Below are positions 2 through 60,483 of a stretch of DNA of 64,000 nt, one piece after another. Source of the DNA: a virus. The stretch is from positions 49,340 through 113,339 of IMG/VR virus record IMGVR_UViG_3300028829_005183; one strand, written 5' to 3'. The notes under the pieces were generated by a model. That model ran no database searches and had not been told where the DNA came from. It was given only the letters and a program-made list of their open reading frames with translations. Position 1 is the first letter of the stretch, and every line of letters begins with the position of its first letter. The translations under genes and the position numbers were made by a program.

Positions 2-670
2 GGCATCTACTATAAAACTGATGGTGATTCATTTCAGTTTGGAGATGATAAACTCATTGGTTGCGCAATATATGGATTCCCAGTTGGAGCAAGAGCAGCA
101 ACCTCTGTATGTGAGGGATTAACTAAGGATAACGCATTGGAGTTGACCAGATTGTACATCGATGATGGGTATGGTTCGAATATCGAATCATATGCGATGG
201 GACAAACATTCAAATGGTTGAAAGAAAACGATAAGAACATTAAGTTGTTGATATCGTATGCCGATGCGGGACAGGAACACTTAGGTAAGATTTATCAGGC
301 AACTAATTGGATTTATCAAGGGTTATCAACCGACATCGCACTAATGCCAAACTATGGTATCTCACTAACGAAAGACCCGTACAATTGGATTCATAGTAGA
401 ACGGTATATTCACTTTGGGGTAGTTCAAATTTAGACCACCTTAAAAACGAAATTGGTAAAGAGGGGCATAGTGAATTTTGGAGGAGAATGGAGCCACCAA
501 AACACAGATACATCCAACTATTACCACAAAACAAAAAAGAGAAGAAAGATTTGATTAAACGGTTGAAGCATGAAATCAAACCATATCCAAAGAATACGGA
601 TGATTTTAATACAGAGGTTGTGAATCATAAAACAACTTATGTAGCTGAGAGTACCGAAAGTTTTTGGTGA
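2..670 (+). CDS. Mom-like DNA-modification protein (5' partial)
   Basis: The frame is open from base 2, so the N terminus lies outside the window; 222 residues remain. Segments LTRLYIDDGYG (about residue 48), LLISYADAGQ (82-91) and IYQATNWIYQG (97-107) match the GNAT-like fold of phage Mu Mom-type proteins, which modify adenine in phage DNA to block restriction. The family call is from memory of these motifs. It overlaps the HNH gene by one base (TGATG). A generic phage acetyltransferase is the alternative. Confidence 0.65.
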   Translation, partial: GIYYKTDGDSFQFGDDKLIGCAIYGFPVGARAATSVCEGLTKDNALELTRLYIDDGYGSNIESYAMGQTFKWLKENDKNIKLLISYADAGQEHLGKIYQATNWIYQGLSTDIALMPNYGISLTKDPYNWIHSRTVYSLWGSSNLDHLKNEIGKEGHSEFWRRMEPPKHRYIQLLPQNKKEKKDLIKRLKHEIKPYPKNTDDFNTEVVNHKTTYVAESTESFW

Positions 671-47047: not shown

Positions 47048-49201
<2,154 letters not shown>

Positions 49202-49205
<4 letters not shown>

Positions 49206-50362
49206 CGAATATTGAATATGATAGCTTATTGAAATGGGCTAATGATAGGGGATATAATTTACACCCAGCGATTGAATACAAAATTGTAGATGGTATTGGT
49301 GGTATGTACGCTACAGAAGATATCCCAAAATCAACTACATTGTACACTGGGCCTGTTTCTCTTTTTAGTGAATGGGGTAATAAGTTGGTTAACAATGATT
49401 ACATATCACGTATGTTCGATGAATACAAAAAGGGTGAAGATTCTGATATACATCAGATGTTTTTAGCACATGAATCGTTGGATTCGTTCAAAAAAAGTAG
49501 TATCTTCTTCGCCACAGCTGATGAGTTGAGTAAGTTGGAAGAAATATCACCAACGGATTACGCAATCGCACTCACTACTATTGATAGAATAAAACACAGA
49601 AGTGAGTGGTGGTCGGATAAAGAACCTGAACTATCTCGTGATGAAATCGTATGGATGCTACTTAATTTTGATACTAGGTCTTGGTCTGATGGTGGGTTTA
49701 ATCCAATATTAGATTTGTTTAACCATTCAAATAATGTGGGAGCATCTAGATTTAATAGCGAAGATGGTAATAAATCCAAATTAATTGCTGTGGTAGATTA
49801 TAAGGCCGGTGACCAAATTTATGATTCATATGGAATCCACGATATGAGTAAGTTCTTATCAAGCTACAACTTCTTCGATAGAACTGATATGCACTATGTG
49901 GATTTGATTAGTAGGGTTGATTTTCCACTTAGTAGTGATGTTGATTTGAAATTGTACGAAGAAGTCAAACGCAGATTCACCACCAAAGAAATTGAGGTTG
50001 ATGGGGTTAAGAAGTATAAAATAATTGATGCCGGAGCATTTCTAACTGAATACGGACCAAATACACAATTTTTGGTTCTGGTTGATATATTCGCACGTAG
50101 GGATATTGAAACAATAGACAACCCAACACAAACCAATCAGATGAATGCTGCTGTGGTATATTTCGAATGGTTGAATATGTTTTACGATTCTATGAAACCA
50201 AATTTGAAATCAAAAGATGAATTAACCGATAGGTTGAAACCTTGGCATGATGTGATTGTGAAAGAAAAGTTGATAATAGAAAACTGCCTTCAATGGCTTA
50301 AGTATACATCTACAAGTGCACTTGAAATAAAGTTGAACGAAAATTTGGAAAATAGTAAATAA
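49202..50362 (+). CDS. SET-domain methyltransferase (SETD/RLSMT-like)
   Basis: 386 residues. GMYATEDIPKSTTLYTGP (34-51) is the SET N-terminal strand region, NPILDLFNHS (167-176) is the N-H-S signature, and DQIYDSYGIHDMSKFLSSYNFF (204-225) holds the catalytic SYG tyrosine. The order and an inserted helical region match the SETD3/SETD6/RuBisCO-methyltransferase type, which methylate lysine or histidine with SAM. It overlaps the J-domain gene by ATGA. The C-terminal third would be the substrate-binding part. Target protein unknown. Confidence 0.8.
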
Positions 50363-52081: not shown

Positions 52082-53020
52082 ATGATTACGGCTGTATGGT
52101 CCTTTAGGAACTGTAAAGGGGAAGAACTATCTCGATTGGATATAATCCTTCCCCTTTTCTCTGCGATAATGTGGAGAAGATTCCACCCCCAACACAAAAT
52201 GGTTCTATATGTTGATTCGGATTATATGACCGAATTTGATAAGTTCGGTTTGTTAGAATTTTGGGATGAAGTAAAGCATCTCCCAAAGAGAACTGATATT
52301 GATATATCACATTTCTGGTCGATTTCTAAAATAGAAGCGATTGAGAACGAAGTGGGCCCGATTGTGCACGTCGATGGTGATTTTGTACCATATACATCTC
52401 TTGAGCTAAATACTGATGTGTTCGATGGTGGGATGGGTGTTACATTATTAGAAGAGATTTTGGATGCTGAACATTTAGCATACATCGATAGTTCAGAAGC
52501 AGCTGAGTTTGGTGGGATATCACCCACATTGTTTGAGTGGGATGATTTCGCAGACCAAACATCATTAATGTATTTAAACAATGATGAACTCAAATCTAAA
52601 TTTATTGAGGAGTTCTACAAATACGCAAAGGTGGTATCTGATAAGAAGATAGACCACAGATTGGCATACATCTTATTTATTGAACAAAAGTACCTCAGAG
52701 AGTTGGCGATGGATATGGGTATCGACAAGCGATATTTAATCAAAGATGCATATAAGGTGAGTAATTCAGGCACATTACCCAATTTAGCCAATGGTGAACT
52801 TCCAATCGAAGAAGCTTGGGGATATTTTTATCACTATGGGCCACATAAAAACGGATTTAATCGTGATTTAGAGATGGCTAATCATTTAGGTACATATATA
52901 TTACCAATTGTGAATGATGAAGAGTTAGCTAAGCTTTTTTGGAACATATACGCTCAGAAACCCTACAAAAAAAAGAAAGTTTCTTTTTGGAAGAGAATAA
53001 TGAATAAGTTAACACAATGA
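52082..53020 (+). CDS. Glycosyltransferase-like protein (DUF6734-type)
   Basis: 312 residues. MVLYVDSDYMTEFDKFG and IVHVDGDFVPYTSLE (DxD-like) near 40-55 and 90-104 fit a GT-A fold; HHGPHKNG-type segments (YFYHYGPHKNGFNRD) follow, and the protein ends in a basic tail. Family recalled as DUF6734. Overlaps the nuclease gene by ATGA. Confidence 0.6.
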   Translation: MITAVWSFRNCKGEELSRLDIILPLFSAIMWRRFHPQHKMVLYVDSDYMTEFDKFGLLEFWDEVKHLPKRTDIDISHFWSISKIEAIENEVGPIVHVDGDFVPYTSLELNTDVFDGGMGVTLLEEILDAEHLAYIDSSEAAEFGGISPTLFEWDDFADQTSLMYLNNDELKSKFIEEFYKYAKVVSDKKIDHRLAYILFIEQKYLRELAMDMGIDKRYLIKDAYKVSNSGTLPNLANGELPIEEAWGYFYHYGPHKNGFNRDLEMANHLGTYILPIVNDEELAKLFWNIYAQKPYKKKKVSFWKRIMNKLTQ

Positions 53021-53601
53021 AGAAGATTTTAACAACAATGGTATGTGTGTTATTTACACTAACCACATACTCACAAAGTAAGATTTGGGAAATAACAACT
53101 GATGTATTCCAAGTCAGATACTCAGAACCCCTACAACAGCCATTAAAAGTTACCTATAAGGTAATGTGTCCGAATGGGGATGCTAAGAGAAGTGGTATGG
53201 ATTTCTATGGACACAGCGATGTATACACCTCAGATGTTGATGATTACAGAAACAACGTATGGGATAGGGGACATCTTGCTCCCGCAGCAGCATTCAATTG
53301 CGATAGAGAAACTTTGAAGAAAACATTCTCCTATCTAAATTGCGCACTCCAACACGAAGGACTCAATAGAGGTCCGTGGAAAGAGTTGGAACGATTCGAG
53401 CGTAACCTCGCTAAAATCTATGATGAGGTTTCAGTAAAGGTTGATATAATTTTCGAACGTAATGAGAAGGTCGCCGGAGGTGCGACTATTCCCACATATT
53501 TTGATAAAGAAATCTCATTTGGTAATCGAACGATTAAGTTTCGATTTCCGAACGAAGATTGTTCAGGAACCGATTGGTATAATTATCTAATCGAAGAATG
53601 A
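53017..53601 (+). CDS. Secreted DNA/RNA non-specific endonuclease
   Basis: 194 residues with a signal peptide (KKILTTMVCVLFTLTTYSQ). NNVWDRGHLAPAAAFNCD near 86-103 contains the DRGH catalytic motif of the Serratia-type NUC family, and LNCALQHEGLNRGPWKELE holds the conserved Asn and Glu. It would cut DNA and RNA outside the cytoplasm. It ends at a terminator. Confidence 0.88.
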   Translation: MKKILTTMVCVLFTLTTYSQSKIWEITTDVFQVRYSEPLQQPLKVTYKVMCPNGDAKRSGMDFYGHSDVYTSDVDDYRNNVWDRGHLAPAAAFNCDRETLKKTFSYLNCALQHEGLNRGPWKELERFERNLAKIYDEVSVKVDIIFERNEKVAGGATIPTYFDKEISFGNRTIKFRFPNEDCSGTDWYNYLIEE

Positions 53602-53610
53602 TAAAGAAAA

Positions 53611-53649
53611 CCCCATTGATAGAGACGGTGACTGTTGATGGGGATTTTT
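53611..53649 (+). terminator. Probable Rho-independent terminator after nuclease gene
   Basis: CCCCAT (53611-53616) pairs with ATGGGG (53638-53643), extended by several wobble and A-T pairs, and ATTTTT follows. It separates the nuclease gene from the TonB-dependent receptor. Confidence 0.65.
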
Positions 53650-53684
53650 ATGCTCACCGAAAAAACAATAATCAATAATAGGAT

Positions 53685-56399
53685 ATGATGATGAAAAAAC
53701 TATTATTTGCAGTAATGATGGCGGGTTTGCCATTTGTGAATACTTTTGCGCAAGTTAGCGGAAAAGTTTTAGGAGAAGGTAGTAAAGATGGACTTCCAGG
53801 GGCAACCGTATTAATTAAAGGAACTGCGGTTGGTTCAGTAACAGATACGGAAGGAAACTTTACAATCCCTTCAGCAACTAAAACTGATACTCTTACGGTA
53901 TCATTTTTGGGGTATCTACAATCAGAAAACATTGGTGGAGGCACCATAGTTTTACAACCTGATGTAGAATTGATAGGAGAGGTAATTGTTACCTCTGGCG
54001 TTATTGATATCGCTAAGGTGCGAGAAACACCTGTTGCGGTATCAAAAATCTCCCCACAGGAGATTGCACTAAAGACGGGAAACCAAGAGTTTCCTGAAAT
54101 TATGAACCGAACTCCTGGCGTATATGCTACGAAGCAAGGTGGTGGTTATGGTGATTCCCGACTATCTCTACGTGGATTCGACCAACGTAACACTTCATTT
54201 CTTATCAACGGACAACCCGTTAATGATATGGAAAATGGTTGGGTGTATTGGTCGAACTGGCAAGGTCTAACAGATGTTGCTAGTGGTATCCAAATTCAAC
54301 GTGGCTTGGGTGCATCTCGATTGGCAGTTCCATCTGTTGGTGGTACTGTATCCATTTTCACCAAAGCAGCACAGCTCGATGAGGGTGGTTCAGTTGCACA
54401 AACTATGGGTAACGATGGTTATCTAAAAACAACAGTCAACTATAACTCAGGTAAAGATGAGAATGGTTGGGCTACATCATTCCTATTAAGTAAGTGGGGT
54501 GGTGATGGTTATGTGTACAATACTTCAGGTGAAGGTTGGACTTACTTTGGTGCGGTTGGGTATGAGCCAGAGGGTTCATCTCATAAAATGAATCTATCCG
54601 TATTAGGTGCTGGGCAGTGGCATCACCAACGTGATGTTTGGGTATCTATACGTGATTTCCAAAACTTTGGTGAAGCAAACGCCGATGGTATCGATGCTCG
54701 ATGGAATTCAAACGGTGGAACGCGTGATGGAGAAGAGTTCAATATGAGAAGAAACTTCTACAACAAACCACTTGCTACATTCAACTGGGATTGGGATATT
54801 ACTGAAAACCTCACTTTGAACACATCTCTATATGGTTCTGCTGGTCGTGGTGGTGGTACTGGACCTCGTGGTAGAAACTATGATGTACTTCCATACAGAA
54901 AAGATTTGTATGAGTTTATGTACGAAGATAGTGTAACTACATTCCGTAACGATGATGGAACTATCAACTATGATGCAATTGTTGATGCTAACCAAGCAGG
55001 CGCTCAGCCATATGGTGTAGCCGATTCATTGGTTGACTCACCATTCTATGGTCAGTTGATTGGTTCCAATGGATTCTCAGATAATGGAGTGTACAGTGGC
55101 GGTATGATTCGTAGAGCATCTATGAACTCACATGATTGGGTTGGGGCAATCTCTAACTTAGAAGGTGAGTGGGGTAATTGGAAAACATCATTGGGTGTTG
55201 ACCTTCGTAGATACAAAGGGTATCATTATCGTGTAGTTAACGATTTGATGGGACTTGATGCATACTACTCTACTGGTAATGATAACTCAAATGGTCAGTT
55301 CATCAATACAACTGTAAACGCATCACCATTCAATAACACAGGATTAAACGGTCCTAAGATTGATTACTATAATGTTGGTAAAGTTGGATGGGCTGGTTTA
55401 AATGGTATGGTTGAGTACAACAAAGATGATAAATTCAACGCTGTTGTCCAAACAGGTGTATCGAATCAATCTTACCAAAGAGAAGATTACTTCGACCAAC
55501 CAGAAAACCCAATTTCAGAAACATCTAACTTGTTAGGTGGTTATGTGAAGGGTGGTGCTAACTTCAACATCGATGAAAAGAACAATGTGTTCTTCAACGC
55601 GGGTTTGATTTCACGCCAACCAATGTTTGATGCGGTGTTCCCTAACTATGGAAACTCAATTAACGATGATTTACAGAACGAAGAAATCCGTTCAATCGAA
55701 TTGGGGTATGGTTATAATACTCGTGATTTGACTGTGAATGTGAACGCATACTCTACAAACTGGGGTAATCGTTTTATCACTCGTTCATTGGCTAACCAAC
55801 AAGGTGTTGATGGATTCGCTCAGTTCCGTGATATCGACGTACAACACAATGGTATCGAATTGGAAGCGAAGTACTACACTACCGATAAGTTGACTCTAAC
55901 GGGTATGGTATCTGCTGGTGATTGGAAGTACACTAAGGACTTCACTTCAACGTTATACGATGAGAACCAAACTGAGATTGGTACTGGTACATTGTACTTA
56001 GAAGGTGCTAAAGTGGGTGATGCTGCACAATTTGTGGCTAACTTGGGTGCTGACTACAAAGTTACCAAAAACATCTCTATGGATGCTGGATATCGTTTTG
56101 TTGATGGATTATACGCTGATTACTCAATTCTTGATGATGTGTTCACTCAGGATGATAATGCTGGCGCATTGAAGCTACCTTCTTATGGTTTATTGGACTT
56201 GGGTATTACTGCTAGGGTTGGTAACTTCCAATTCAGAACCAATATGAACAACGCACTAAACACTACATATATTGCAGAATCTAACACAAACATTCACACT
56301 ACTGAAACTTCAGATACGTGGAATGGTGTTGATACACAAAACTTTGTATGGTTTGGGTTTGGTAGAACTTGGAATGCTAGTTTGAAATACACTTTCTGA
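53685..56399 (+). CDS. TonB-dependent receptor (SusC-like)
   Basis: 904 residues. A signal peptide (KKLLFAVMMAGLPFVNTFAQ) is followed by a carboxypeptidase-regulatory-like domain (GKVLGEGSKDGLPGATVLIK; about 24-95), then a plug (TPVAVSKISPQEI, EIMNRTPGVYATKQGG, LSLRGFDQRNTSFLINGQP) and a long aromatic beta-barrel ending FGRTWNASLKYTF, the last-strand pattern for outer-membrane insertion. Length is normal for the family, which imports vitamins, metals or glycans with TonB energy. Terminators flank it on both sides. Its codon choice resembles its neighbours. Confidence 0.95.
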   Translation: MMMKKLLFAVMMAGLPFVNTFAQVSGKVLGEGSKDGLPGATVLIKGTAVGSVTDTEGNFTIPSATKTDTLTVSFLGYLQSENIGGGTIVLQPDVELIGEVIVTSGVIDIAKVRETPVAVSKISPQEIALKTGNQEFPEIMNRTPGVYATKQGGGYGDSRLSLRGFDQRNTSFLINGQPVNDMENGWVYWSNWQGLTDVASGIQIQRGLGASRLAVPSVGGTVSIFTKAAQLDEGGSVAQTMGNDGYLKTTVNYNSGKDENGWATSFLLSKWGGDGYVYNTSGEGWTYFGAVGYEPEGSSHKMNLSVLGAGQWHHQRDVWVSIRDFQNFGEANADGIDARWNSNGGTRDGEEFNMRRNFYNKPLATFNWDWDITENLTLNTSLYGSAGRGGGTGPRGRNYDVLPYRKDLYEFMYEDSVTTFRNDDGTINYDAIVDANQAGAQPYGVADSLVDSPFYGQLIGSNGFSDNGVYSGGMIRRASMNSHDWVGAISNLEGEWGNWKTSLGVDLRRYKGYHYRVVNDLMGLDAYYSTGNDNSNGQFINTTVNASPFNNTGLNGPKIDYYNVGKVGWAGLNGMVEYNKDDKFNAVVQTGVSNQSYQREDYFDQPENPISETSNLLGGYVKGGANFNIDEKNNVFFNAGLISRQPMFDAVFPNYGNSINDDLQNEEIRSIELGYGYNTRDLTVNVNAYSTNWGNRFITRSLANQQGVDGFAQFRDIDVQHNGIELEAKYYTTDKLTLTGMVSAGDWKYTKDFTSTLYDENQTEIGTGTLYLEGAKVGDAAQFVANLGADYKVTKNISMDAGYRFVDGLYADYSILDDVFTQDDNAGALKLPSYGLLDLGITARVGNFQFRTNMNNALNTTYIAESNTNIHTTETSDTWNGVDTQNFVWFGFGRTWNASLKYTF

Positions 56400-56431
56400 G
56401 TGTAGCTACATACTTATATAAAATAGATGAT

Positions 56432-56470
56432 GGAGGGGTGATTACAGAGGTAATCATCCCTTCGTTGTTT
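56432..56470 (+). terminator. Terminator hairpin after TonB receptor gene
   Basis: GGAGGGGTGATTAC (56432-56445) pairs with GTAATCATCCCTTC (56450-56463) through an AGAG loop, with one G-U pair. A T-rich stretch (GTTGTTT) follows. Confidence 0.8.
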
Positions 56471-56538
56471 AGAATCACAACATAGGTAACATAATATTTT
56501 TTATATGCCTTCACTCGAATGAAACCCAAGGAGCTTGT

Positions 56539-58437
56539 ATGCGTCTAATATCTTTTTTCTCTGTACTATTCTTTCTACACTTCACAATCAAAGGTCAATG
56601 TGATGTAGCTATAACTGATGTGAATCTCAATACATATGAGGTTACAGTTGAAGTAATTAACTCAGCGGGATGTACCGCAAATGGACCAGGTGGTGTTAAT
56701 GGGGCAGTAACCATGCTACAAATAGGTTATCACTTGCCAGAAGCCATCGATCCAGATAATGAGGTAGTTGACCTATTAACACTACCAAATGCTCCATGCA
56801 GTCCACAATGGGTAGATAATGGGTACAACTTAGGTATGAATCCTACTAGCTTTCATCCTGGTTGGTGGTATAGTCCATCTACATCAGTAACTTTTCAATC
56901 AGATATTATGGGTGATGGGTTAATTACTGGCGATGTGGTTACCATCCCTCTTAATCCACCAGGTGATTATATTACTTACCCCAACCCCGTTGCCGAATGT
57001 GGGGATGATTTAATTGATTATTGGTTATCAGAAGATGAATGTATTGAATTTGTAGTATGGCAATTAAATTATGGTTCAACTTGGTATGAAAACAATGGGG
57101 GCTGGGCAACGGGTGAAGGGCCTGGAACATATCAAGATCAAAATTGTAACAATTCGTGGTATCTATGTAGAGATGAGAATCCCGGTGCGGCTGTAGCATC
57201 TCCTGATTTTGCTTGCCCGCCAGATGCACCAGATGCAGTAGTTGGTGATATTGAGTTTGATATAGGTTGTATAGGTGATATACCTACATATCAACTAACA
57301 TACACAGTATTTAATTATGGTAATGCACCAATAACCGATTATTGTATTGAAATATGGAATGAAGATTATTATCAATGTTTTGATTCAGAACTTTTTGGTT
57401 CATATGAAATTGGAGTAGGTGAGGGTCAACAATTCACTACACCTTTTTTTGAATATGATGGCGGTGCTAGTATTTTTGTAGTTTCTGTTGATAATGTTAA
57501 TGATGAAGTTATTACAGGTAATAACAATACTTCAGTTTACTATCCTGATGAGTTAGATGAATTAGTATGTCCTGAAGTGTGCGAACCAGATACTGTTGAA
57601 ATTGAAACAATCACTTACATAACTCAAATAGATTCAATATTCATAACTGATACAGCATACGATACCATCTATATTCAATTACCACCTGAAATAATCTATG
57701 ATACTTTAGTAGTCATTGATGTTGTAGATAACTTCATCTATGATACCATTTATGTTGATAACTTCATCTATGATACCGTCTATGTAGATAACTTCATCTA
57801 TGATACCGTCTATGTAGATAACTTCATCTATGATACTACTTACATTTACGTCGAACTACCACCGGATACACTAATAGTTACTGAGGTGGAATATGTAACA
57901 GATACCATTTATATTGATAATTACATTTACGAATACGATACTGTGTATGTGGATGTTCCAATAGTGGATACCCTTTATATTACAGAAACCGAATACATAG
58001 TAGATACATTATTTGTAACAGAATACATAACTATAACAGATACGATAACAGAATACATAGTTCAGGAGATGTGGATTGATTGTATTACAGGTTTACCATG
58101 TGATGAAGAACCACCTGGAATGCAATGTCCTGATTGGACTACGATTCATATACCAAATACATTTACTCCAAATAATGATGGACACAATGATGTTTGGAAA
58201 GTGATTTATGATTTGAGCTGTTGGGAAGATGTGGAGTTTAAAATATTCAATCGGTGGGGTAATCAGATATATGAGGGATATGGTGATTACTACGAATCAT
58301 ATCCATTTTGGGATGGAAGTGTGAATGGGGGAGATTATTACGCTCAAGATGGGGTATACTTCTATTTATTCAAAGCAAAGAAAGTGGGAATGGTAGAGGT
58401 TATCGAAAAGCAAGGACACATAACAATTTTCAGATAA
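56539..58437 (+). CDS. Secreted protein with T9SS type B sorting domain
   Basis: 632 residues: signal peptide (RLISFFSVLFFLHFTIKGQ), several beta-sandwich-like regions, a linker of repeated DNFIYDTVYV units (about 395-434), and a C-terminal 90-residue domain with IPNTFTPNNDGHNDVWKV, FNRWGNQIYEG, WDGSVNGG and DGVYFYLFKAK, the gliding-motility-associated (type B) sorting signal. It should pass through the host type IX system. AAGGAG lies five bases upstream. Two of the five GATC sites are in this gene. Confidence 0.88.
   Translation: MRLISFFSVLFFLHFTIKGQCDVAITDVNLNTYEVTVEVINSAGCTANGPGGVNGAVTMLQIGYHLPEAIDPDNEVVDLLTLPNAPCSPQWVDNGYNLGMNPTSFHPGWWYSPSTSVTFQSDIMGDGLITGDVVTIPLNPPGDYITYPNPVAECGDDLIDYWLSEDECIEFVVWQLNYGSTWYENNGGWATGEGPGTYQDQNCNNSWYLCRDENPGAAVASPDFACPPDAPDAVVGDIEFDIGCIGDIPTYQLTYTVFNYGNAPITDYCIEIWNEDYYQCFDSELFGSYEIGVGEGQQFTTPFFEYDGGASIFVVSVDNVNDEVITGNNNTSVYYPDELDELVCPEVCEPDTVEIETITYITQIDSIFITDTAYDTIYIQLPPEIIYDTLVVIDVVDNFIYDTIYVDNFIYDTVYVDNFIYDTVYVDNFIYDTTYIYVELPPDTLIVTEVEYVTDTIYIDNYIYEYDTVYVDVPIVDTLYITETEYIVDTLFVTEYITITDTITEYIVQEMWIDCITGLPCDEEPPGMQCPDWTTIHIPNTFTPNNDGHNDVWKVIYDLSCWEDVEFKIFNRWGNQIYEGYGDYYESYPFWDGSVNGGDYYAQDGVYFYLFKAKKVGMVEVIEKQGHITIFR
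57724..57843 (+). repeat. Four 30-base direct repeats encoding DNFIYDTVYV
   Basis: Four head-to-tail units of GTAGATAACTTCATCTATGA plus ten bases, nearly identical at DNA level, unlike the diverged repeats at 33-34.5 kb. Such recent repeats can change copy number by slippage. Confidence 0.92.
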
Positions 58438-58446
58438 AAAGGTCAT

Positions 58447-60483
58447 ATGAAAAAATTAATTACAATTCTTATAGTTGCGTTAAGTACATCAATCTATGCG
58501 CAAGAACAATGTGGTACTGATGCGTTGATGATGGGTATACCACGAAATCAACGAATGATGCCACCACCTGAGGTAGATTTGGATACTGCTGAAGTTATCA
58601 CAATCCCATTAGTGTTTCACATCGTACATTTGGGTGAACCAATCGGTGAAGGAACGAATATCAGCGATGAGCAGATTCAAAGTTCCGTAGATGCGTTGAA
58701 CGAAGATTTCAGAAAGATAGAAGGAACAAATGGTGATGGGTTGGGAGTTGATACCAAAATTGAGTTTTGTTTGGCATCTCGCTCGCCAGATAATCTACCT
58801 ACCACTGGGATACTCAGACACGATGGTTCAGACCTCATTTACTCAGATACATTCGCAGGTCAATCCATATACGAAGAATATGTTACGACTGGAGTAACAT
58901 CTATGAGTGGATTCTCAAATCCAAATGGTGTACCAGCTACTCATATGAAGGATGTATATGGGTGTTGGGACTTGGATGATTATCTGAACATTTGGGTTGT
59001 AAGTGAGATTGAGGGTAATAATGGTGGTAATGGTATTCAGGGGTTTTCATACATTGGGTTTAACAATATACAATGTGATGGGGGACCCGTTGTTCTGTAC
59101 AACAGAGTTGGTACTATTGGTAACATAAAAAGTGGAACTCTCAACAGAACAGTTACCCACGAATTAGGCCACAACTTTCTGCTATATCATACGTTTGGAT
59201 TCGGTGGTTCATCGTGTACAGAAACTAATTGTGAAACGCAGGGAGACCAAGTCTGTGATACACCACCAACAACACCAAACTATGGGTGTTCACCAAATAG
59301 TTGCCCGGATGCTCAAGTGAACAACTATATGGATTACACATCTCCAACTTGCCGTAATACATTCACTCAAGGGCAAACGGAGAGAATGCGTAATGAGATT
59401 TGGACGAGCAAGGGTGGATACACTCAAAGTTTAGGATGTATCCCCGTTACAGATGTGGATGGTGGTATATCAAATATGGCGATATTAAATCCAAATTGTA
59501 ACACTACTTTTGATGTAACGATAACATTGGCTAATTTTGGTATTGAAGAATTAACAAACCCTACTATAACACTAACAAATGGTAGTTCTCAGCAAACTTC
59601 AGATATTGAACTTAGTTTATTGGGTGGTGAAACATTTACTACTACAATTGAATTTACATCGTTATTTTCATCAACCATTGAAGCAGATGTGGTTTTTGAA
59701 CAATCAGAGGATTTCATCACAAACAATACAAATAGTACGGATTTCATCTATGAAGATGGTAACACATTGAAAATCGAACTAAGTCCTGATGTGTGGTCGA
59801 ATGAGTTGGATTGGGAACTTTTAGATGAAGATGGTGAGATTGTGATGTTCGGTGGTGATTATCCCGTCTTTTCACAAGATAGTACCTTTGTTGATGAGGT
59901 TTGCTTATTTGGTAGTTGTTATACATTCAATCTCTACGATAGTAATGGAGATGGGATGTGTTCGATTGATTTGGATGGTGATGGTAATTGTGATATATTC
60001 TATGATGCATTTCTACGAATCACATTGAACGATGAGGTAATATTTGAACTAACTGATGTTGATGATATGGATTTTGGTTCACAACTAACTTTCGAATTTT
60101 GTGATGAGGTTGTTGATTGTGTAGGAGATGTGGATGGGGATAATAAGGTAAGTGTAACCGATGTTATGACTATGTTATCTCAAATAGGATGTGTTCAGAT
60201 TCAAAATCCATGTCCTGCTGATTTGAACGGAGATGGTGTGGTAAATAGTGATGATTTGTTCATTGTATTATCGAACTATGGAAACAATTGTTCAGCAGCT
60301 GTATTGATTGAAGAATTCACAGAAATGAATGTGATGAAAGTATATTCTGATGTTCCTGTGGGATTCTATGATTTATCTGGTCGTTGGGTATCATCTGATG
60401 AAGGTACGTTAAGAAGTGGTATCTACATATTGATAGAAAAGCGTGATGGTTCGGTGGTACAATCGAAAATATTCATTCAGTAA
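58447..60483 (+). CDS. Secreted M43-type metalloprotease with dockerin-like region and T9SS tail
   Basis: 678 residues. Signal peptide (KKLITILIVALSTSIYAQ), then a pappalysin-type catalytic domain with HELGHNFLLYH (238-248; zinc histidines and glutamate) and the Met-turn NYMDYTS (293-299). A CARDB-like region follows, then two dockerin-like calcium repeats (DVDGDNKVSVTDVMTML and DLNGDGVVNSDDLFIVL, about 555-615) and a short C-terminal sorting domain ending GSVVQSKIFIQ. Extracellular protease or matrix enzyme. Confidence 0.92.
   Translation: MKKLITILIVALSTSIYAQEQCGTDALMMGIPRNQRMMPPPEVDLDTAEVITIPLVFHIVHLGEPIGEGTNISDEQIQSSVDALNEDFRKIEGTNGDGLGVDTKIEFCLASRSPDNLPTTGILRHDGSDLIYSDTFAGQSIYEEYVTTGVTSMSGFSNPNGVPATHMKDVYGCWDLDDYLNIWVVSEIEGNNGGNGIQGFSYIGFNNIQCDGGPVVLYNRVGTIGNIKSGTLNRTVTHELGHNFLLYHTFGFGGSSCTETNCETQGDQVCDTPPTTPNYGCSPNSCPDAQVNNYMDYTSPTCRNTFTQGQTERMRNEIWTSKGGYTQSLGCIPVTDVDGGISNMAILNPNCNTTFDVTITLANFGIEELTNPTITLTNGSSQQTSDIELSLLGGETFTTTIEFTSLFSSTIEADVVFEQSEDFITNNTNSTDFIYEDGNTLKIELSPDVWSNELDWELLDEDGEIVMFGGDYPVFSQDSTFVDEVCLFGSCYTFNLYDSNGDGMCSIDLDGDGNCDIFYDAFLRITLNDEVIFELTDVDDMDFGSQLTFEFCDEVVDCVGDVDGDNKVSVTDVMTMLSQIGCVQIQNPCPADLNGDGVVNSDDLFIVLSNYGNNCSAAVLIEEFTEMNVMKVYSDVPVGFYDLSGRWVSSDEGTLRSGIYILIEKRDGSVVQSKIFIQ

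Follow-up and report, generated by a model that had tools for sequence, protein, structure and literature searches.

The locus raises the question what a virus gains from encoding a complete TonB-dependent receptor (TBDR), for which an earlier note on this DNA had left open feeding of the infected cell, replacement of a receptor or a decoy role. The explanation we favour overall, at somewhat less than even confidence, is that the phage carries a functional copy of one host TonB-dependent transporter, which would import a nucleic-acid-derived ligand in infection. Taken separately, a function as importer during infection is probable from the gene and its relatives, and a nucleic-acid-derived ligand is a tentative proposal. 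The gene lies in a stretch of 64,000 nucleotides (the window) corresponding to bases 49340–113339 of a 113,339-bp virus record. The latter encodes a T4-type major head protein (phrog_138; PF07068, E 5e-79) and tail sheath as well as T4-type clamp loader, DNA polymerase, DnaB-like helicase and ribonucleotide reductase (RNR), and hence can be assigned to a T4-like myovirus; judging from the genes it carries and from its relatives, the host is presumably a member of the Bacteroidota.

The open reading frame is intact and all domains score above the Pfam cut-offs (CarbopepD_reg_2 at residues 24–81, Plug at 112–220, barrel at 377–856), with 48 bits for PF07715 (plug) and 44.2 bits for PF00593 (barrel), in agreement with the earlier description as a full-length phage-borne receptor. 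The same description had called the protein SusC-type, which has to be abandoned. It shares CarboxypepD_reg, plug and barrel with SusC/RagA proteins, but with its 904 aa reaches only 69.6 bits with the SusC/RagA profile TIGR04056 (cut-off 368.25), and no SusD gene is adjoining, the neighbours being nuclease, CHU_C and M43 proteins. An AlphaFold2 model based on 52 sequences (pLDDT 84.9, pTM 0.79) comprises the plug and 22 barrel strands. Among solved structures, it is closest in fold to Fiu, PqqU, FhuA and OprC (TM-score 0.72–0.79 by target for FhuA/Fiu/PqqU), i.e., siderophore, PQQ and copper transporters with an identity of only 11–15%; these folds are generic, and reading the ligand off them was dismissed. 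An identity as BAM-complex subunit was rejected as well, BamG being FadL-like and unrelated (PMC12611786). The protein begins with MMMKKLLFAVMMAGLPFVNTFAQ and ends with ...LKYTF, and both termini as well as the EVIVTSGV segment, a TonB contact predicted from sequence alone, are conserved in phage and host copies. A subset of the phage and host TBDRs (L011, L013, L057, L058, L060, L061, L071–L078) is devoid of the CarboxypepD_reg domain and has kept the TonB box; this domain appears to have been repeatedly lost or gained.

Features of the TBDR locus; positions refer to the window or, where marked aa, to residues of the TBDR
Feature	Position	Strand	Basis or remark
Secreted DNA/RNA non-specific (NS) endonuclease, PF01223, signal peptide, DRGH motif	53017–53601	+	Syntenic in TBDR-free relatives
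Terminator-like hairpin with T-tract, between nuclease and TBDR genes	53611–53644	+	Folding versus shuffles
TBDR, complete ORF, 904 aa	53685–56399	+	Pfam, AlphaFold2, fold search
TBDR, signal peptide	aa 1–23		
TBDR, CarboxypepD_reg N-terminal extension	aa 24–91		
TBDR, TonB-box region (EVIVTSGV)	aa ~97–104		
TBDR, plug	aa 112–233		
TBDR, 22-strand barrel			
TBDR, C-terminal Phe			
Very stable hairpin directly 3' of TBDR	about 56424–56471	+	Weak T-tract; canonical terminators there in relatives
Secreted protein, T9SS type B sorting domain (CHU_C, TIGR04131)	56539–58437	+	Missing in TBDR-free relatives
Secreted M43 (pappalysin-like) metallopeptidase, dockerin-like repeat	58447–60483	+	Missing in TBDR-free relatives

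Two hairpins flank the gene, which the earlier note had taken for terminators enclosing a moron with its own expression. Both hairpins are real. The upstream one, at the end of the nuclease gene, folds at –15.7 to –18 kcal/mol (z –3.6) and is followed by ATTTTT. The downstream one attains –27 to –29 kcal/mol (z –5.8 to –7.6; equally stable shuffles 0/200), but its T-tract is weak (TTCGTTGTTT) so that in the window it qualifies as a strong hairpin but not as a classical terminator; a consensus terminator scan listed neither of the two. Within 100 bp of the TBDR stop codon, a hairpin of –15 kcal/mol or lower is present in 44 of 46 non-redundant phage copies, in many cases as a GC stem plus T-run, versus 13% of 114 other phage genes, supporting that the TBDR ends its own transcription unit. 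Hence, of the moron claim the separate unit is retained, as is the status of a gene extra to close relatives, whereas promoter-like matches around the TBDR are no more frequent than in shuffles; promoters of these phages may differ from those scored.

Clues to the ligand come from the gene neighbours. Among the best 80 of 406 viral loci, a secreted S1/P1 nuclease is encoded beside the TBDR in 18 and an IMPDH/GMP-reductase directly upstream of it in 17. With the S1/P1 nuclease as independent bait, the TBDR was found adjoining in 8 of 11 loci, one of the remaining loci being cut off within 109 bp. A secreted NS endonuclease directly precedes the TBDR in the window and in seven other phage loci. 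On the cellular side, a Candidatus Arcticimaribacter MAG encodes TBDR, S1/P1 nuclease, Na+-nucleoside symporter, LOG-family protein and NS endonuclease consecutively on a contig with ordinary chromosomal genes, and a second, related MAG shows TBDR, S1/P1 nuclease and Na+-nucleoside symporter; the symporter locus was seen in these two MAGs only. In a midpoint-rooted tree of a small sample, the phage S1/P1 nucleases form one clade by the TBDR-linked Arcticimaribacter enzyme, apart from free-standing host enzymes. The common host locus has the order DUF3108, tryptophan-2,3-dioxygenase-like gene, M23 peptidase, pgi, TBDR and small membrane protein, followed in many genomes by a secreted EEP nuclease; some genomes possess a pair of CarboxypepD_reg barrel and DUF5689 proteins at this locus. 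Two Riemerella proteins of this description, to which the likeness of the host pair is one of family description only, are essential for DNA uptake in natural transformation (PMC8459023).

In other near-clade hosts, recA, sugar enzymes or SusCD genes adjoin the TBDR, and with such unrelated neighbours the gene context is no sure guide to the ligand. The NS endonuclease with its signal peptide is near-universal in the window lineage (11 of 13 records searched), and a core gene for a periplasmic or extracellular nuclease in a lytic phage is remarkable in itself; as it is present with or without TBDR, it may lie next to the TBDR of the window by chance. An S1/P1 nuclease is encoded neither by the window phage nor by most TBDR phages. 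A nucleic-acid ligand is accordingly put forward with reserve, since the NS endonuclease is core without TBDR, the S1/P1 enzyme is mostly missing and some host neighbours are unrelated.

In the import reading, the TBDR would be made from its own transcript in the infected cell, exported by Sec and placed in the outer membrane with the help of the host BAM complex, and host TonB-ExbBD would drive it, the infected cell thereby taking in more ligand. The likeliest ligand would be an oligonucleotide, nucleotide or nucleoside from extracellular nucleic acid, supplying phage DNA synthesis with nucleotides and phosphorus. Phage secreted nucleases may cut DNA and RNA in the periplasm or outside the cell, and the TBDR may carry the pieces over the outer membrane. 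That secreted nuclease and repeatedly captured TonB-driven transporter constitute a nucleic-acid feeding module in large T4-like phages of marine Bacteroidota is a rather doubtful extension of this reading; if true, the infected cell would digest surrounding DNA and RNA, for example, of lysed neighbours, into phage genomes. Import in general has to face that the closest relatives by DNA polymerase live without a TBDR (0 of 40; polymerase 67–92% identical, records up to 187 kb and maybe incomplete).

Alternatively, the TBDR might take up iron-siderophore or similar and feed the class I, iron-dependent RNR of the phage, which we consider unlikely. The closest folds are indeed FhuA/Fiu-type transporters, the phage possesses class I RNR genes, and in 4 viral loci the gene immediately preceding the TBDR is that of the RNR large subunit, which in further loci lies no more than two to three genes away. 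However, this fold is common to all TBDRs and the identity to the solved structures is just 11–15%, TBDR-free relatives have RNR too, and neither siderophore genes nor iron-linked neighbours were seen at the host loci examined.

Selection on the working parts of the protein bears on a transport function as well as on a role in superinfection control. Pairwise dN/dS values of 0.07–0.22 in 19 phage TBDR pairs demonstrate purifying selection. With loops and strands assigned from the AlphaFold2 model, the mean pair identity among phage TBDRs amounts to 0.90 in the plug and to 0.74 in both strands and extracellular loops. A search for phage-specific residues that could mark a decoy yielded a single site, 417, which is the only one separating phage from near cellular copies, and at positions conserved to more than 97% the window TBDR shows one departure, the conservative I97 for L. 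As the loops are as conserved as the strands and only site 417 distinguishes phage copies, the ligand face can be considered unchanged, and conserved loops and plug argue for a presumably retained transport function and against a phage-modified receptor. Among the three roles initially left open, import is thus favoured by unchanged loops, plug and TonB box together with the nuclease neighbours, and no sign of a phage-modified receptor was found.

Enterobacterial phages encode porins and FhuA-blocking lipoproteins that protect the infected cell against other phages, and the porin of phage PA-2 and Llp of T5 are phage products that block or replace a host receptor. Like these, the TBDR would be a phage product residing at the outer membrane of the host, and it might replace or saturate a host receptor or compete with it, be it for TonB or for phages arriving at the cell. 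TBDRs often serve as phage receptors, and the insertion adds surface or exported proteins (CHU_C, M43) by a secreted nuclease which might destroy incoming DNA. Nevertheless, such a control of superinfection is improbable, as a blocking receptor should have altered loops, whereas the phage loops match those of the hosts and are no more variable than the strands. Unlike the PA-2 porin and Llp, the window TBDR is predicted to be an unmodified 22-strand active transporter, and an additional unmodified receptor would attract phages rather than exclude them.

Relatives of the TBDR are encoded on 406 IMG/VR stretches, the best 80 of which (63–78% identity) lie nearly all amid phage genes common to the window record or to each other, while these phage neighbour families are absent from 77 of 80 cellular TBDR loci. 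The search for homologues in other phages proposed in the earlier note was therefore successful, and the gene is not restricted to host chromosomes. T4-type capsid genes are present in the large carriers G041, G042, G043, G045 and G047 (89–276 kb). In a second T4-like lineage, defined by the polymerase of L036, the TBDR is found in 16 of 18 loci (polymerase identity of at least 83% and enough flank), and one of the two exceptions (L306) shares its contig with the TBDR locus L062. Phage and cellular copies interleave in trees. Constraining 16 phage rows to monophyly costs 345 log-likelihood units, and a single-origin phage clade is rejected by the AU test (p-AU 2e-83). Label changes between phage and cell on starred branches number at least 7 in the reduced and 12 in the full tree, as unrooted counts from which the direction of single exchanges is not readable. 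Each of 16 cultured or sequenced host genomes possesses one close orthologue (43–67% identity) among 30–130 TBDR candidates, the runner-up showing at most 36% identity. From the interleaving copies and the single close orthologue per host it follows that phages have exchanged one specific TBDR with their hosts on many occasions. Not all hosts possess the gene, which was found in 37 of 201 genomes of one host family at E ≤ 1e-150, and its designation as a core gene of Bacteroidota was consequently dropped.

Such mobility might also be that of a passenger, a host gene ferried between hosts and useless in lytic infection. Its patchy presence, the lack in all 40 close relatives and the position in a variable accessory region are in line with this. 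Long-term purifying selection, near-fixation in the L036 lineage, full adaptation to GATC avoidance, the conserved terminator and the limitation of repeated exchange to one TBDR type, on the other hand, make it very unlikely. In favour of retention for a use are the intact frame, purifying selection, the usual own terminator-like hairpin and the many host–phage exchanges.

Over much of its length, through GroEL, the record shows the same gene order as five relatives selected via their DNA polymerase, and this order includes the secreted nuclease in four of these. None of the five has TBDR, CHU_C or M43 genes, and on the far side (61.8–63.7 kb) genes are again matched in two. Hence, these three genes look like an insertion behind the conserved secreted nuclease, with the TBDR as its putative first gene, and the self-contained single-gene cassette proposed before is to be revised in this respect, full length and hairpins being retained. 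As none of the 40 polymerase relatives has a TBDR, its gain is specific to the lineage of the window phage; together with the syntenic insertion, this characterizes a putative auxiliary gene, as an extra gene missing in close relatives. CHU_C relatives are also encoded close to the TBDR in L005, L021 and L032, and an M43 relative in L005.

The TBDR gene contains no GATC versus 9.7 expected from composition; synonymous shuffles have a mean of 8.1, with none of 2000 free of GATC. The whole window has 5 versus 207 expected, and near cellular TBDR copies sampled have 5–11 each. Codon use is inside the range of the other genes of the window phage, so both codon use and GATC absence fit the phage as claimed. 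Hence, although the gene is bacterial-looking and close to the end of a metagenomic contig, an assembly chimera or host contamination is extremely improbable and was rejected by this GATC depletion, by the order of nuclease and phage genes on both flanks as in relatives, and by dozens of further phage contigs with the TBDR beside phage genes, confirming that the gene is no assembly artefact.

The closest known system is the host TBDR encoded at the pgi locus in Flavobacteriaceae and further Bacteroidota, which is full-length, 42–70% identical, has the same domains with loops and plug conserved, and among whose nearer members the phage copies nest. The phage copies differ in residing in T4-like phages, in having other neighbours and, in the window phage, in being GATC-depleted. 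No literature on a phage-receptor role of a TBDR of the pgi-locus type in Flavobacterium was found. A putative 'SusC' TBDR has been described for the marine megaphage Mar_Mega_1 and LR745206 and proposed to raise uptake in infection (PMC9723777). This is also a full-length TBDR of large marine phages, reported for single genomes and not as a conserved, repeatedly exchanged gene. The marine-phage 'SusC' A0A8D9FQQ5 (BFVD), by name and source probably the Mar_Mega_1 protein, is the sole good TBDR match in the viral structure library and, with about 13% identity in the structural match, belongs to a different TBDR family. For Polarivirus skadi, a small pelagiphage, a 'TonB-dependent receptor protein' is annotated between tail-tube and capsid genes and read as pointing to the adsorption receptor (PMC10504331); the likeness, known by description, is that of a marine-phage TBDR annotation only. 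T4-like phages of marine Bacteroidota have been reported (PMC7198788), and in the part of this source covered by the terms looked for no TBDR was found. A prior report of a widespread, repeatedly exchanged phage TBDR was not found in the open-access literature. Novel here are, therefore, the TBDR family, its spread and repeated exchange, with import as the likely function predicted from sequence.

Phage auxiliary genes described to date mostly alter intracellular metabolism. The present gene suggests that viruses reprogram the uptake of the infected cell from seawater; if true, viruses of a major marine group of polymer degraders would change what their hosts take up. A defined gene and natural pairs of related phages with and without it offer a way to test the effect of infection on ocean nutrient uptake, and the finding highlights an uncharacterised host TBDR worth a ligand search.

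Several further observations were made on these phages. Avoidance of GATC is strong in the whole record (about 12 versus about 370 expected; window positions 1–64000 plus L162–L164), the count is zero in relatives G020 and G006, and the TBDR phages L003, L058 and L074 show no avoidance. At window positions 47051–49205, a phage GroEL (phrog_5725, E 1e-156) precedes a 192-aa protein whose HPD motif is J-domain-like, and at 49202–50362 a SET-domain protein (PF00856) is encoded which is missing in all five relatives compared. With the two secreted proteins at 56539–60483, the window phage appears to export cargo via host type IX secretion, and CHU_C proteins are also encoded by G043, G046, G048, G059, G061 and G072, each a TBDR carrier. 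Finally, another plug-domain protein is encoded by the 252-kb phage G041 in an open frame of 661 aa (L245, G041:C1 about 231,174–233,494), less than 2 kb away from the NS endonuclease of this phage.
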